From the NCBI GenBank assembly GCA_020073345.1, contig JAIQFI010000027.1, positions 1-64,000 of the forward strand: DNA of 64,000 nucleotides. Reading direction: 5' to 3'. The translations under genes and the position numbers were made by a program. Source of the stretch: Terriglobia bacterium. GTDB taxonomy: Bacteria > Acidobacteriota > Terriglobia > Bryobacterales > Bryobacteraceae. Below the pieces are notes generated by a model that made no database searches, had not been told where the DNA came from, and worked only from the letters and a program-made list of their open reading frames with translations. Positions 37,994-55,428 of the stretch are shown piece after piece; positions within the stretch are counted from its first letter, which is position 1, and each line of letters starts with the position of its first letter.

Positions 37994-38203
37994 ATGGTCA
38001 CACACGACGCATTTAGGCTTGCGCTGATGACGACGATCGTGGCAACGACGATTGTCATCGTGCGCCGCGTCGGTCCTCTTTTTACGGACGCGATTCAAGA
38101 TCTTGCGGATCACTTTCGAGGCGGACCCCGGCCGCCATCGCACCCGTTACCTGGTGATGATTCCGTAGTGATCAGGCGGCGAAGCACCGCGCGGGATCAG
38201 TAA
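37994..38203 (+). CDS. Small hypothetical protein with one hydrophobic segment
   Basis: 69 residues from ATG 37994: a hydrophobic stretch (LALMTTIVATTIVIVRRV), an amphipathic helix, and a proline-rich tail GGPRPPSHPLPGDDSVVIRRR. The tail looks conserved in type among short acidobacterial proteins, but I cannot name a family. An upstream ATG at 37976 would add six residues. TAAGAT at 37972-37977 is a possible -10, leaving about 10 nt of leader. Its stop overlaps the convergent fusion gene by 7 nt. Confidence 0.55.
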   Translation: MVTHDAFRLALMTTIVATTIVIVRRVGPLFTDAIQDLADHFRGGPRPPSHPLPGDDSVVIRRRSTARDQ

Positions 38204-40416
38204 AGAAGAAACGGACGCCGGCGGTTCATAAAGCTGGCGATGTCGTTCATCAAACCCTGCTCGATCACCCGTGGATCGTCGCCTGCCTTCAGTGCGTCGA
38301 TCACCTTGCGGTTGCCGATGAGCTGTTTCGACAACTCAAAGTCGATCTTGCCGGGGTAGAGTTTTTGCAAAGCATGAGCGACTTCCAGCCCCAGGCGAAT
38401 CGAGTCGAACTGATCGCGGTCCGTAATGACGAATCGCATGCCTTCCACGTTTGAAGTAAGGTGCGTCGGATATACGCGCACGCCCGGGATGTAGCGGGCG
38501 TTCAGAAACTCGGCCAGTTCCACGCCTCGCACCCATTCCGCGCCGATCTGCTCAAAAGGAGCGTCGGTGCCCCGCCCTACCGAATAATTCTTCGAAGACT
38601 CGATCAGCGCCAGGCCAGGATAAAGCGTCGCCGCGTTCAGACTCCGCATATTGGGTGAAGTGTCGGTCCACGTTAACCCGGTAGAATCGAACCAGTCGCC
38701 GCGCTCCCAGTTCTGCATTTTGATGACATGCAGATCCGCGTTCCACTTGCGCTCAGCATTGGCCATGGTAGCGAGCTCGCCCAGCGTGAGCCCGTGACGG
38801 ACCGGCAAATCGTAGCAGCCCGCAAAGCTTTGGAGATTCGCGTCCAAAATCGGCCCTTCGACGTGCAGGCCGGTCACCGGATTCGGCCGGTCCAGCACGT
38901 AAAAGGGGACCTTGGCTTTGGCGGCTTCTTCCAGCGCATAGAGCATGGTGCAGGAGTAGGTGTAGAAGCGCGTGCCGACGTCCTGGATGTCGAACACCAG
39001 TGTGTCGACGCCGCGCAGCATCTCCGGCGTGAGCCGGTAGCGACCGTTGTTGTAGAGGCTCCGGATGGGAAGCCCGGTGGCCTGGTCGCGCGCGTCGCCG
39101 ATATCCGGGCGGTCTTCGCGGCCCGTGATTCCATGTTCCGGTGCAAATAGCGCGGCGACCTTTACACCCGCCGCGAGCATCACGTCGACATTACGCCGCC
39201 CCTGGCGGTCGATTCCGGTCTGATTGGTGATCAGCCCGATCTGGTGGCCTTCGAACGGCGCGAACTTCGCTTGCGCGAGCACTTCGAGCCCCGTCAGCAC
39301 GCGAGCGTTCCTCGGGCCGAGGCCCAGACCATCGGCAGCGATGGTGGCGACGGTCCTGCGCCATTCGTTGATGCTGCGACCACCCTTGGGATGGACGCGG
39401 TTAGTCATGATCACTACGAACGATTTGCTGGCCGGGTCGATCCACAGCGCCGGGCCGGTGAATCCGGTATGCCCGTAAGATGTCCCGCGGGGAAAAATAT
39501 CGCCGCGATTGGACGAGTACGGCGAGTCGATATCCCAGCCCAAGCCGCGCAGAATCGGCTGGTCGGGCGGGCCTGCCGGCGAGGTGAACAACTCGATCGT
39601 AGCCGGCGCGAACAAGTGACCGCTCAGCATCATTTCTGCATAGCGCGCCAGGTCGTCGGCCGTCGAGAACACACCAGCATGCCCCGCCACGCCGCCCATG
39701 AAACGCGCGGTCGGATCGTGCACGACGCCGCGCCACGGCGTGCCGGTGGAGGCGTCGACTTCCGTAGGCGCGATGCGCGCGGCCAGTGCAGCAGACGGCT
39801 TGAAAGTGGTCTCCCGCATCCCCAGCGGCTCGAAAATCTGCTCGCGCGCGAACTGATCGAACGGTTTTCCGCTCACCCGCTGCACGATTTCGCCTAGCAA
39901 TTCGAAGTTGATGTCGCTATAAACGAAATTCCGCCCGGGCGGCCCGGTGGGCTTGTCGATCAGCGCCTTGCGAATGCCGGTTTCATACCCGGTCCACGGC
40001 GGGTCGATATCGAGATCCGGGCGCAGTCCTGAGTAGTGCGTCAGTAGGTTACGAATCGTGACGTTGCTCTTGCCGCCCTGAAACTCGGGGAGGTACGCAG
40101 TGACTGGATCGTCGAGCTTGATCTTGCCCTGCTCGTAAAGCTTCATGATCGCCGGCGTAGTCGCCACGACTTTAGTAAGGGACGCGATATCGTAAATCGT
40201 GTCGGGCGTCGCAGCTTCTTTCGCAGGGACCAGCGCGCGGGATCCGTATGCTTTGCGATAAACGATCTTCCCGTCGTGGCCGATGAGAATGACCGCGCCG
40301 GGGATCAGGCCGTCGCGGATCGCCTGTTCGGTAGCTGCATCGAGCGCCGCAGAGCCTGCAAAAACCTGTGCTGACGCAGACGACACTATCAACGTCACCG
40401 CCAGCAGAAGCTTCAT
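38197..40416 (-). CDS. Fusion of serine beta-lactamase-like amidase and NamZ (DUF1343) exo-muramidase
   Basis: 739 residues with a signal peptide (ending at ASAQVFA). Residues 25-355 are a PF00144 serine hydrolase: SLTK nucleophile motif at 79-82, YSD (variant YxN) in FVYSDINFELLGE, and HTGFTG. Residues 360-739 are a DUF1343 domain (IGLITNQTG, LFAPEHGI, VFDIQDVGTRFYTY, DRPNPVTG), the family of NamZ, an exo-beta-N-acetylmuramidase. In Bacillus the same activities are separate enzymes (AmiE and NamZ) encoded beside nagZ. The fusion likely removes the peptide and then cleaves MurNAc from peptidoglycan fragments outside the cytoplasm. It overlaps the pterin dehydratase gene by 4 nt. Confidence 0.9.
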   Translation of the reverse strand: MKLLLAVTLIVSSASAQVFAGSAALDAATEQAIRDGLIPGAVILIGHDGKIVYRKAYGSRALVPAKEAATPDTIYDIASLTKVVATTPAIMKLYEQGKIKLDDPVTAYLPEFQGGKSNVTIRNLLTHYSGLRPDLDIDPPWTGYETGIRKALIDKPTGPPGRNFVYSDINFELLGEIVQRVSGKPFDQFAREQIFEPLGMRETTFKPSAALAARIAPTEVDASTGTPWRGVVHDPTARFMGGVAGHAGVFSTADDLARYAEMMLSGHLFAPATIELFTSPAGPPDQPILRGLGWDIDSPYSSNRGDIFPRGTSYGHTGFTGPALWIDPASKSFVVIMTNRVHPKGGRSINEWRRTVATIAADGLGLGPRNARVLTGLEVLAQAKFAPFEGHQIGLITNQTGIDRQGRRNVDVMLAAGVKVAALFAPEHGITGREDRPDIGDARDQATGLPIRSLYNNGRYRLTPEMLRGVDTLVFDIQDVGTRFYTYSCTMLYALEEAAKAKVPFYVLDRPNPVTGLHVEGPILDANLQSFAGCYDLPVRHGLTLGELATMANAERKWNADLHVIKMQNWERGDWFDSTGLTWTDTSPNMRSLNAATLYPGLALIESSKNYSVGRGTDAPFEQIGAEWVRGVELAEFLNARYIPGVRVYPTHLTSNVEGMRFVITDRDQFDSIRLGLEVAHALQKLYPGKIDFELSKQLIGNRKVIDALKAGDDPRVIEQGLMNDIASFMNRRRPFLLY

Positions 40417-51829: not shown

Positions 51830-53665
51830 ATGCTACATTTTTGGGTGACCATGTTTGAGAGGTTGCTGCTCGCCGTATTGTTGGCCGCGTCCCTCGCCGG
51901 ATTCTGGTGGCGCTTCGGCGCCGTGCTCCGCAGGATCCGCGCGGCTAAGCCGGATGCCGATTTCTCGCTGCTTCCCATCGGCCCGCGAATTCGCGAGCTG
52001 GTCTGGGAAGTGATGCTCCAGGCCAAGGTCATCCGCGAGCGGCCTCTGCCCGGCCTGGCCCACGCCCTCGTGTTCTGGGGATTCTGCGCCTTCTCCCTGG
52101 TCACGCTGAATCACATCGCGATCGGTTTCGGCGGAGCCTTTTTATCCCCTGGCAGCTTCTACTTCCAACTGGCGGCCGTATTCGCAGTCCTGGTGGCGAT
52201 CTCAATCTCGGCACTATTCGTCCGCCGGTTCATCCTGCGCCCGAGGTGGCTCGGCGAGCTTTCGTACCAGTCCGGCGTAATCGCTTTTCTGATTCTGGCG
52301 CTCATGCTGACCTACCTGGCGGCGTTGCGGATGGCCGATTCCAAACTGTTGTGGTGGTCCCACACTGCGGCGTCGCTCGTGTTTCTTCCTTTGATCCCGC
52401 ACACCAAACATCTGCACCTGGTGTTAAGCCCGTTTTCGATATTCCTCTCGCGCGGCGGCTTCGCCAAAATTCCGCCGCTCGCCGACGATGAAGACTTCGG
52501 CCTCGACACCGGCAAGGACTTGACGCAGATCGCCGCCCTGCAGGCCTACTCTTGCGTCGAGTGCGGCCGTTGCACCGAACACTGTCCGGCCAACAACACC
52601 GGCAAGATTCTCGATCCCAAGAAGATCGCGCTGGGCGTGCGCGGCTACCTGAATGAGTTCGGGCCGGCATCAGAAGAGCCGCTTTTCGGCAAACATCTCT
52701 CGCAAGAAGCTGCGTTCCAATGCACCACCTGCGGCGCGTGCGAATACCAGTGCCCGGTGGGCGTCGAACACGTTCCCATCATCGTGGGGCTACGGCGCGG
52801 CGCGGTGAATACCGGCAAGTGGGAGGACAGCTACGGCACCAAGTTGTTTCTCGCGCTCGAGCGCAACGGGAACGCGCTCGGCTTCAGTTCCGCCGAACGC
52901 GACAAGTTTATCGCCAGGGAACAGTTGCCGATCTTCGACGGAACGCAGGAGTACTGCCTGTGGCTCGGCTGCATGGGCGCCTACGATCCGCAGGGCCGCG
53001 AGATCATCACCGCCTTCGCCCGTGTGATGAAACACCTAGGGACCACTTTCGGCGTTCTGCAGAAAGAGAAATGTACCGGCGATCCCGCACGTCGCTTGGG
53101 CAACGATCTCGTGTTCCAGCAGCTCGCCGAATCGAATCTCGAAGCGCTGAAGCAGAGCAAGACGACCAAGATCGTTTCCATCTGCCCGCATTGCGTTCGC
53201 ACCATCTCCACTGATTGGCAGGAATACGGTCAAGCCCCACCCATCGAACATCACAGCGAATTCATGGCGCGCCACATCGACCGGCTGCCTCAGTCTAAGG
53301 GCGAAGATATCGTCTATCACGATCCCTGCTATCTGGGCCGTTACCGCAACGTGTATGACCAACCTCGAGCGGTGCTCGCTCGATCCGGTGAAGTCTTGGA
53401 TCCCCCGCGTGCACGCGAACGAAGCTTCTGTTGCGGCGCCGGCGGCGGCCTCGCATTTCTGGGCGAAGAGCAAGGCGAGCGCGTCAGTCACAATCGTGCA
53501 CGCGAGTTAGCAGCGACGGGAGCAGGCACCGTGGCGGCGGCATGCCCCTTCTGCAACACCATGTTTCGCGATGCTCTCGCGGCCGTGTCACCGGCGCCGC
53601 CGAAGTTATTAGACATCGCTCAGATCGTGGCCGCCTCACTTCCCACCAAGAGTGAGATCCTATGA
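51830..53665 (+). CDS. Membrane Fe-S oxidoreductase, HdrD/FadF-like
   Basis: 611 residues. Five or six membrane helices occupy the first 215 residues (NarI-like cytochrome-b-type part with histidines at HALVFWG, HIAIGFG and HTKHLHLV). Two [4Fe-4S] motifs follow, SCVECGRCTEHCPANN and QCTTCGACEYQCPVG. Two cysteine-rich CCG-type blocks end in YHDPCYLGRY and SFCCGAGGG. This is the layout of proteins that move electrons between quinones and a heterodisulfide-like or acyl-CoA dehydrogenase system. The partner is not present. An alternative start at ATG 51851 is possible. It overlaps the nagZ-like gene by ATGA. Confidence 0.9.
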   Translation: MLHFWVTMFERLLLAVLLAASLAGFWWRFGAVLRRIRAAKPDADFSLLPIGPRIRELVWEVMLQAKVIRERPLPGLAHALVFWGFCAFSLVTLNHIAIGFGGAFLSPGSFYFQLAAVFAVLVAISISALFVRRFILRPRWLGELSYQSGVIAFLILALMLTYLAALRMADSKLLWWSHTAASLVFLPLIPHTKHLHLVLSPFSIFLSRGGFAKIPPLADDEDFGLDTGKDLTQIAALQAYSCVECGRCTEHCPANNTGKILDPKKIALGVRGYLNEFGPASEEPLFGKHLSQEAAFQCTTCGACEYQCPVGVEHVPIIVGLRRGAVNTGKWEDSYGTKLFLALERNGNALGFSSAERDKFIAREQLPIFDGTQEYCLWLGCMGAYDPQGREIITAFARVMKHLGTTFGVLQKEKCTGDPARRLGNDLVFQQLAESNLEALKQSKTTKIVSICPHCVRTISTDWQEYGQAPPIEHHSEFMARHIDRLPQSKGEDIVYHDPCYLGRYRNVYDQPRAVLARSGEVLDPPRARERSFCCGAGGGLAFLGEEQGERVSHNRARELAATGAGTVAAACPFCNTMFRDALAAVSPAPPKLLDIAQIVAASLPTKSEIL

Positions 53666-55428
53666 ACATGCGAGCTGTCCGGCTGATCGCAGCATTGCTG
53701 ACCGCTGTGACCGCCTTCGCCGCATCAAAAACTCCCAAACCTAAGCCCGCTCCGCTCACCGCCGATCAACGCGCGGCGCAAGCCTTGATGAGGCCCATGA
53801 GTTTGCGCGATAAGGTCGCGCAGCTGGTAATCGTCGTCTCCAATGGCGACGTCTACAGCACCAAGTCACCGGATTACGAGAAGTTCCGCCACTGGGTCGC
53901 CGATCTGCGCGTCGGCGGCATCATCGTCAACAACGCGTCACAAAACGGACTGGTTCGCAACGCCGAGCCTCATGCCATGGCGCTGTTTCTGAACCAGATG
54001 CAGAGGCTGGCGAAGACTCCCCTGCTGGTCGCCTCCGACTTCGAGCGCGCCGCTTCCATGCGCGTCACCGGCGGCACGCGTTTCCCGCACAGCATGGCCT
54101 TCGGCGCGGCGGACGATCTTGCCGCCACCAGGTATGAGGGCTTGGTCGCCGCACGCGAGGCTCGTGCGCTGGGCATTCACTGGATCTTCGCGCCTGTAGC
54201 CGATGTCAACAATAATCCACTGAACCCGATCATCAACCTGCGCTCCTATGGCGAGAATCCGGAAAAGGTATCGCGCCACGTGGCCGCGTTCATCGAAGGC
54301 GCGCATTCCGACCCCGCCAACCGTGTCCTGGTCACCGCGAAACATTTCCCAGGGCATGGCGATACCGATGTGGATAGCCACCTCGGTCTGCCGCGTCTCG
54401 AAGTCCCGCGCGAACGTCTCGACGCCATGGAGCTGAAGCCGTTCGAGGCGGCCATCATGCGCGGCGTCGATTCCATCATGACCGCGCACATGGCGGTACC
54501 GGCGCTGGACCCTTCCGGCATGCCTGCCACCGTATCGCGAAGTGTGCTCACCGCACTGCTGCGCGACGAGCTCAAGTTCAATGGCCTGATCGTCACCGAC
54601 TCGATGGCCATGCAGGGCCTGTCCATGCTGTTCGACAGCGGCGAGGGCTCAGTGCGTGCCGTGATCGCGGGCGCGGACGTGCTGCTGATGCCCCCGGATC
54701 CCGACAAAGCCATCCGCGCGGTGGTGGGCGCCGTGGAGGACGGCCGCATCTCTCGCCAGCGGCTGGAGCAGAGCGTTGTGCGTGTGCTCACCGCGAAGAT
54801 TGCGCTCGGGTTGAGTAGTAAAAAGAAGCTGGTCAACCTGGACGCGATTTCCGACGTCCTGGACTCGCCCCAAGCCGTCGAGAGAGCCCAGGCCGTCGCC
54901 GATCACGCGGTCACGCTGATCCGCAACGACCGCGACCTGCTTCCACTAGCCGCGTCAAGCCGCCCTTGCCTGATCGTGGTAACCGAGCTGCGCATCTCGC
55001 AATTCGGTCAACGGACTATGCAGGAATTTCGGCGCCGCGTGCCCAACGGACGCGTGGTGGCACTCGATACTTCACTGCCTCTCGCCGCCCTCGAAGCCAC
55101 CGCTGGCGACATGACCGCGTGTTCGGCGATCGTCGCGGCATCCTTCGCCTCCGTCTCCGCCGATCTGAAGGACGTCAAGCCATTTCTCACAGCGCTGTCC
55201 ATGAGCCCCGTGCCGCTGGTGCTGCTGCCGTTCGAGAATCCTTACCTGTTGACGAGTATCCCGAACGCAACCGCCTTCGTCACCACGTTCAGCTCGTCGC
55301 TGCCCTCGGAAATAGCCGCCGTCAAGGCGCTGTTCGGCGAGATCCCGATCACAGGACACACGCCTGTGACGATTCCGGGTTTCGCCCAGCTTGGCGACGG
55401 CATCCAGTTACCGGCGCGAGCCCGCTAA
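53662..55428 (+). CDS. nagZ: Beta-N-acetylhexosaminidase, GH3 family
   Basis: Releases terminal GlcNAc from peptidoglycan fragments. The 588-residue product has a signal peptide (ending VTAFAAS), a GH3 catalytic barrel with KHFPGHGDTDVDSH (Asp-Ser-His dyad at 238-240) and the nucleophile Asp in IVTDSMAMQGL (D313), and a second C-terminal GH3 domain (from about 400). This two-domain exported form resembles Bacillus NagZ rather than the single-domain cytosolic enzyme of E. coli. It overlaps the oxidoreductase stop by 4 nt, but the functional link is more likely with the amidase-NamZ fusion at 38.2 kb. Confidence 0.9.
   Translation: MNMRAVRLIAALLTAVTAFAASKTPKPKPAPLTADQRAAQALMRPMSLRDKVAQLVIVVSNGDVYSTKSPDYEKFRHWVADLRVGGIIVNNASQNGLVRNAEPHAMALFLNQMQRLAKTPLLVASDFERAASMRVTGGTRFPHSMAFGAADDLAATRYEGLVAAREARALGIHWIFAPVADVNNNPLNPIINLRSYGENPEKVSRHVAAFIEGAHSDPANRVLVTAKHFPGHGDTDVDSHLGLPRLEVPRERLDAMELKPFEAAIMRGVDSIMTAHMAVPALDPSGMPATVSRSVLTALLRDELKFNGLIVTDSMAMQGLSMLFDSGEGSVRAVIAGADVLLMPPDPDKAIRAVVGAVEDGRISRQRLEQSVVRVLTAKIALGLSSKKKLVNLDAISDVLDSPQAVERAQAVADHAVTLIRNDRDLLPLAASSRPCLIVVTELRISQFGQRTMQEFRRRVPNGRVVALDTSLPLAALEATAGDMTACSAIVAASFASVSADLKDVKPFLTALSMSPVPLVLLPFENPYLLTSIPNATAFVTTFSSSLPSEIAAVKALFGEIPITGHTPVTIPGFAQLGDGIQLPARAR

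Follow-up and report, generated by a model that had tools for sequence, protein, structure and literature searches.

An S12 serine hydrolase fused to a NamZ exo-muramidase in Terriglobia and its probable role in MurNAc salvage

The fusion gene and its active sites

The window (the whole analysed stretch of 64,000 nucleotides, contig JAIQFI010000027.1 of a Terriglobia bacterium) encodes on its reverse strand a 739-amino-acid protein in an open reading frame with an ATG start and no internal stops (Table 1). Pfam places a PF00144 (Beta-lactamase) domain (E 1.9e-73), a short linker, NamZ_N (PF07075, E 9.1e-78, 260.7 bits against a cut-off of 26.9) and NamZ_C (PF20732, E 8e-31, 108.3 bits against a cut-off of 25) in a row. 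NamZ_N followed by NamZ_C is the order expected for a NamZ, and all three domains score far above their gathering scores. The first-pass annotation had described a single protein of PF00144 and DUF1343/NamZ; the Pfam matches, the uninterrupted frame and the recurrence in other loci bear this out. The N-terminus, MKLLLAVTLIVSSASAQ, was judged by eye to be a typical Sec signal, and a similar hydrophobic N-terminus is common to many fused homologues in the alignment. The protein is presumably exported.

Table 1. Features of the fusion gene, its upstream neighbour and the nagZ gene of the window.
Feature	Position	Strand	Remarks
S12 serine hydrolase::NamZ exo-beta-N-acetylmuramidase fusion, 739 aa	38197..40416	(-)	open reading frame, Pfam, fold
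Probable Sec signal peptide, residues 1-16, MKLLLAVTLIVSSASA	40369..40416	(-)	read by eye; lipobox cysteine absent
PF00144/peptidase S12 domain, residues 27-351	39364..40338	(-)	Pfam; S12 structural matches with Z 37-39
SLTK, residues 79-82, nucleophile Ser79 and Lys82	40171..40182	(-)	S79 and K82 invariant, n=34 fused
YSD, residues 166-168, Tyr of the second S12 motif (YxN/YxD)	39913..39921	(-)	invariant, n=34
HTG, residues 316-318, third S12 motif (KTG-equivalent)	39463..39471	(-)	n=34
NamZ_N domain PF07075, residues 393-593	38638..39240	(-)	Pfam
PEHG, residues 426-429, Glu427 candidate NamZ catalytic acid	39130..39141	(-)	invariant, n=34 fused
NamZ_C domain PF20732, residues 598-739	38200..38625	(-)	Pfam
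Pterin-4a-carbinolamine dehydratase gene, 96 aa	40413..40703	(-)	upstream neighbour; stop overlaps fusion start (ATGA)
Exported-type two-domain GH3 NagZ, KHFPGHGDTDVDSH motif	53662..55428	(+)	the genome's single GH3; predicted partner enzyme

Conservation was checked by aligning 34 fused proteins. The three S12 (PF00144) motifs SxxK, YxN/D and HTG are all present as S79-K82, Y166-S-D168 and H316-T-G318. S79, K82, Y166, S167, D168, H316 and G318 are invariant, and the third motif reads HTG or HSG in 34/34 sequences. SLTK and HTGFTG had been picked out before and were found again, the latter within GHTGFTG (residues 315-321). Invariant positions of the NamZ half are P426-E427-H428-G429, D476, D509, R510, N512 and P513, further R572, W575, D577, R591, E606 and R615. 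PEHG also occurs in the Bacteroides structures 4k05 and 4jja. Its glutamate, Glu427, is the candidate catalytic acid, an assignment based on conservation. Both active sites look intact. Loss of catalytic residues in either half, the objection to look for according to the first-pass annotation, was rejected at the sequence level because the S12 and NamZ motifs are kept throughout the 34 fused sequences.

An AlphaFold model from a 28-row alignment reached a mean pLDDT of 88.1 and a pTM of 0.67. Each domain is well defined in the model, but how the two sit relative to each other is less certain. For residues 367-739, the DUF1343 structure 4k05 matches over 364 residues (Z 47.7, rmsd 2.2 Å), and the match of the model to 4jja has a Z of 38.4. 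Residues 16-369 match S12 hydrolases with Z 37-39 (6kjh, Z 39.2; EstG 7u1b, Z 37.2; Foldseek was also run).

The fusion gene and the upstream dehydratase gene are probably co-translated, as the stop of the one overlaps the start of the other. The same dehydratase overlaps or abuts the fusion in eight other Bryobacterales-type loci (L062, L063, L064, L068, L069, L072, L078 and L089). It has no obvious tie to cell-wall salvage.

Spread and ancestry of the fusion

Of 61 relatives, a set that includes the window genome, 59 have NamZ, and 28 of the 30 loci drawn from relatives carry the fusion. The two exceptions are a locus cut by a contig end (L023) and a stand-alone gene (L003). The fusion is near-universal in the order. 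In the phylum as a whole, 232 of 297 genomes have NamZ, and a further copy is common. At least 581 relatives emerged when bacterial and archaeal genomes were scanned, and the best 80 of these were examined as a second collection. Fused loci make up 77 of these best 80 and represent Acidobacteriota, Verrucomicrobiota, Planctomycetota, Armatimonadota, Hydrogenedentota, Myxococcota, and Gamma- and Betaproteobacteria. The remaining three are a MAG gene broken into two reading frames (L140), adjacent but separate NamZ and S12 genes in a verrucomicrobial locus (L139) and an S12 protein alone in Gluconobacter (L141).

A FastTree phylogeny of 135 NamZ domains gathered 103 rows in one group, composed of 101 fused proteins, one frame-shifted and one truncated; three divergent fused rows lie outside. 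A single origin of fused NamZ is likely but not proven, because deep tree supports are weak. Fusion of the two domains is ancient and common among soil bacteria. Looking for phage copies turned up nothing beyond metagenomic 'bacteriophage' contigs and weak matches. Three loci of the same phylum (L038, L048 and L056, family f34) have a different NamZ fusion, in which 250 to 480 residues precede NamZ at the N-terminus; this extension matches no Pfam family (L048 was scanned whole).

The architecture was tabulated in 2008 as DDPept-DUF1343 for one protein, YP_439122.1, under 'cell wall biosynthesis' (PMC2605481). The novelty implied by the first-pass annotation was therefore overstated: the fusion is both widespread and previously tabulated. 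A fused protein on a Burkholderia plasmid, named 'exo-beta-N-acetylmuramidase NamZ domain-containing protein' in RefSeq, has the same two domains, and their order was read directly in this protein. Fused proteins of Burkholderia and Cupriavidus share 38-40% identity with the fusion over the whole length. We rate the novelty as low to moderate, since the architecture is conserved and was already on record.

Salvage genes in other genomes and in the window genome

The gene for the MurNAc-6P etherase, murQ, lies in 17 of the 77 fused loci, always within 3.5 kb. The flanks of the 77 loci add up to 682 kb, in which a gene present once per 4.5-Mb genome would be expected about 0.15 times; chance co-location was rejected on this ground. 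The 17 loci belong to Terriglobia, Blastocatellia/Pyrinomonadaceae, Planctomycetota and Hydrogenedentota, that is, several lineages and not 17 independent events. NagZ is encoded in four of the 77 loci. In L130, a BadF-type kinase, MurQ, an SSF symporter, NagZ and the fusion are encoded consecutively on the same strand. The order in L074 is SSF, MurQ, fusion, NagZ; in L103, genes for NagZ, SSF, MurQ and kinase are transcribed divergently to a LysR gene and the fusion. L136, from a Hydrogenedentota MAG, combines the fusion with AnmK, a SpoIID protein and a kinase::MurQ fusion. This conserved clustering with murQ, nagZ, kinase and symporter genes, seen elsewhere and outside the window, is the strongest functional support. 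It amounts to an AmiE-type genetic linkage to MurNAc salvage genes, present in other fused loci and absent in the window genome itself. The kinase::MurQ gene (L136:9508-11340) joins a BadF-type kinase and a MurQ-like SIS protein in one open reading frame, so that two consecutive cytoplasmic MurNAc steps are likewise fused.

Other neighbourhoods differ. Burkholderiaceae have a conserved, partly plasmid-borne trio of a polysaccharide deacetylase gene, a DUF4015-type putative glycoside hydrolase gene and the fusion (L132, Caballeronia; L160, Burkholderia; L162, Cupriavidus). A haloarchaeal cluster keeps unfused S12, NamZ and NagZ together with AnmK; it was found on plasmids of Halorussus halophilus (L159, NZ_CP044525.1, 3183-14227) and Haladaptatus salinisoli (L161, NZ_CP085329.1, 2556-14112). 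These clusters encode a family-5 peptide-type ABC transporter, an SDR, AnmK, a HAD hydrolase, the S12 hydrolase, a protein that matches no Pfam family, NamZ and NagZ. Haloarchaea lack peptidoglycan. As little precedes the domains in their S12 and NamZ proteins, these may work in the cytoplasm on bacterial muropeptides that have been imported. A plasmid of Paenibacillus guangzhouensis carries a MurNAc catabolic cluster (L163, 767-19041) with murR, murQ, a sugar ABC transporter, AnmK, GNAT, a PIG-L deacetylase, NamZ, a BadF kinase, a family 10 hydrolase, nagA and nagB; an S12 gene was sought beside this cluster and is absent.

The window genome has one NamZ, the fusion, one MurQ above the cut-off and one AnmK, and the three genes lie on separate contigs. 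It encodes one BadF-family kinase. The candidate for a MurNAc kinase matches the NagK family only, below its cut-off. An SSF protein is 46% identical to the symporter of L130. AmpG (TIGR00901) and PTS EIIC gave no match in the window genome, with positive controls in E. coli and B. subtilis; both absences are tentative, as the genome is 97.5% complete. The NagZ to which the first-pass annotation had pointed is real. It has the KHFPGHGDTxxDSH motif, a second domain and, by eye, a signal peptide, as in Bacillus-type exported NagZ, and matches BsNagZ 3bmx at 1e-60, with 3sql and 6k5j scoring higher. Its position says little: it is on the opposite strand, 13.2 kb and several genes away from the fusion, so no operon joins them here and their proximity was not used as evidence.

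On contig C37 of the window genome, murQ is directly followed by an overlapping murA-like gene (L146:8622-10782). The pair is conserved in many Terriglobia, also in L071, L075, L082, L084, L085, L087, L121 and L122, and a second S12 gene is often near. This adjacency puts MurNAc salvage beside the first committed step of MurNAc synthesis.

Proposed route and competing readings

In B. subtilis, ybbC now goes by the name namZ, and AmiE (YbbE) is presumably an S12/PF00144 protein. The B. subtilis genes form a cluster, murQ-murR-murP-amiE-nagZ-ybbC, and AmiE, an N-acetylmuramyl-L-alanine amidase, acts with NagZ sequentially outside the cell (PMC5061867). The comparison with Bacillus in the first-pass annotation was correct in this respect. 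Our protein resembles B. subtilis NamZ by its full NamZ_N and NamZ_C, PEHG, its fold and the association with murQ and NagZ. Unlike the stand-alone NamZ and the separate amiE gene of B. subtilis, NamZ here follows the S12 hydrolase in one protein.

The interpretation of the fusion as a muropeptide-processing enzyme is supported. It is probably an exported amidase and exo-muramidase that carries out two consecutive exo-lytic steps of peptidoglycan breakdown in MurNAc salvage. The S12 domain would be an N-acetylmuramoyl-L-alanine amidase of the AmiE/YfeW type and would strip the stem peptide from the non-reducing-end MurNAc of a glycan or muropeptide. NamZ requires MurNAc without peptide; the NamZ half would next release this bare MurNAc from the non-reducing end. 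The exported GH3 NagZ would then remove the following GlcNAc and expose the next MurNAc-peptide for another cycle. Free MurNAc could be imported by the candidate SSF symporter, phosphorylated by a candidate BadF/NagK-type kinase and cleaved by MurQ, which yields GlcNAc-6P, with AnmK handling anhydroMurNAc ends. Gene inventory and linkage, spread, folds, domain content and motif integrity are observations; the amidase reaction, the order of steps, export, processivity and the identity of transporter and kinase are what we infer. Extracytoplasmic breakdown of muropeptides to free sugars is the economical reading, given the apparent absence of AmpG and MurP.

The later steps have a parallel in the MurT-MurK-MurQ route of Tannerella forsythia with NamZ1/NamZ2. 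MurNAc import, kinase and MurQ are shared, and the clustering of kinase and symporter genes with the fusion in other loci parallels that route. Unlike in T. forsythia, the importer candidate here belongs to the SSF family. T. forsythia has AmpG (PMC7670621), whereas the window genome gave no AmpG match. A wider proposal, to which we give nearly an even chance, makes the fusion the core of a large AmpG- and PTS-independent route in Acidobacteriota, Verrucomicrobiota and Planctomycetota. This route would consist of the exported amidase::exo-muramidase with NagZ, an SSF importer, a BadF-type MurNAc kinase and MurQ, and would recycle or eat peptidoglycan; the tether would make the steps processive at the chain end.

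The same chemistry may serve another role, the digestion of peptidoglycan from dead bacteria as food and not of the cell's own turnover products. We regard this as a serious contender, below even chances. The SSF importers in the clusters, the missing AmpG match and the same enzyme set in haloarchaea, which lack peptidoglycan, fit such a diet, yet housekeeping recycling is what the near-universal presence in the order would lead one to expect. The position of murQ beside murA, a gene of cell-wall synthesis, in the window genome and several relatives also speaks for recycling.

The amidase label is the weakest link of the interpretation, as S12 enzymes include esterases and carboxypeptidases. 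The best curated family of the S12 half is PBP4B/YfeW (NCBIfam PRK03642) with 153 bits, followed by AmpH with 95 bits and AmpC types with at most 65 bits. The equivalog cut-off of PRK03642 is 385 bits, which makes the S12 half a relative of PBP4B/YfeW and not a member. It shares 33% identity with E. coli YfeW over 347 columns, and yfeW is the S12 gene of the murQ operon in E. coli, the last of the run murQ-murP-yfeW. YfeW differs in having no NamZ domain. The physiological reaction of YfeW is, to our knowledge, not settled, and a literature search on GH171 and on the function of YfeW/PBP4B yielded nothing usable. It is conceivable, though unlikely, that the S12 half instead works as a DD-carboxypeptidase/endopeptidase or as an esterase, for example one that strips O-acetyl groups from MurNAc or cleaves another envelope ester, and in this way readies the chain end for NamZ. 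The name of the closest family, 'penicillin binding protein 4B', points in this direction, as do the nearest solved structures, esterases and acyltransferases such as EstG, EstB and 6kjh; fold alone thus cannot pick an amidase. The need of NamZ for peptide-free MurNAc makes an amidase its natural partner. Among the S12 genes that adjoin murQ and nagZ is that of the B. subtilis amidase AmiE (PMC5061867). We infer an amidase.

Drift of the NamZ half to another hexosaminide, or its inactivity, is quite improbable. The fused NamZ domains branch away from most stand-alone copies, but they keep every invariant position including PEHG, the fold match is close (Z 47.7) and the genes cluster with murQ. 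An assembly or frame-shift artefact is refuted and has virtually no probability left, because the same one-frame S12::NamZ fusion recurs in more than 100 loci from other genomes, 28/30 from relatives and 77/80 in the second collection.

Dead-cell peptidoglycan is a large pool of nitrogen and carbon in soil, and Acidobacteriota are among the most abundant soil bacteria. In phyla where MurNAc salvage has received little study, the fusion gene is a marker of a route for it. The gene also suggests a likely function for many proteins annotated as 'serine hydrolase' or 'beta-lactamase' and calls for caution against reading them as resistance genes. A conserved two-step enzyme in a single protein, linked to murQ, offers a testable entry to MurNAc salvage without AmpG or PTS in poorly cultured phyla.
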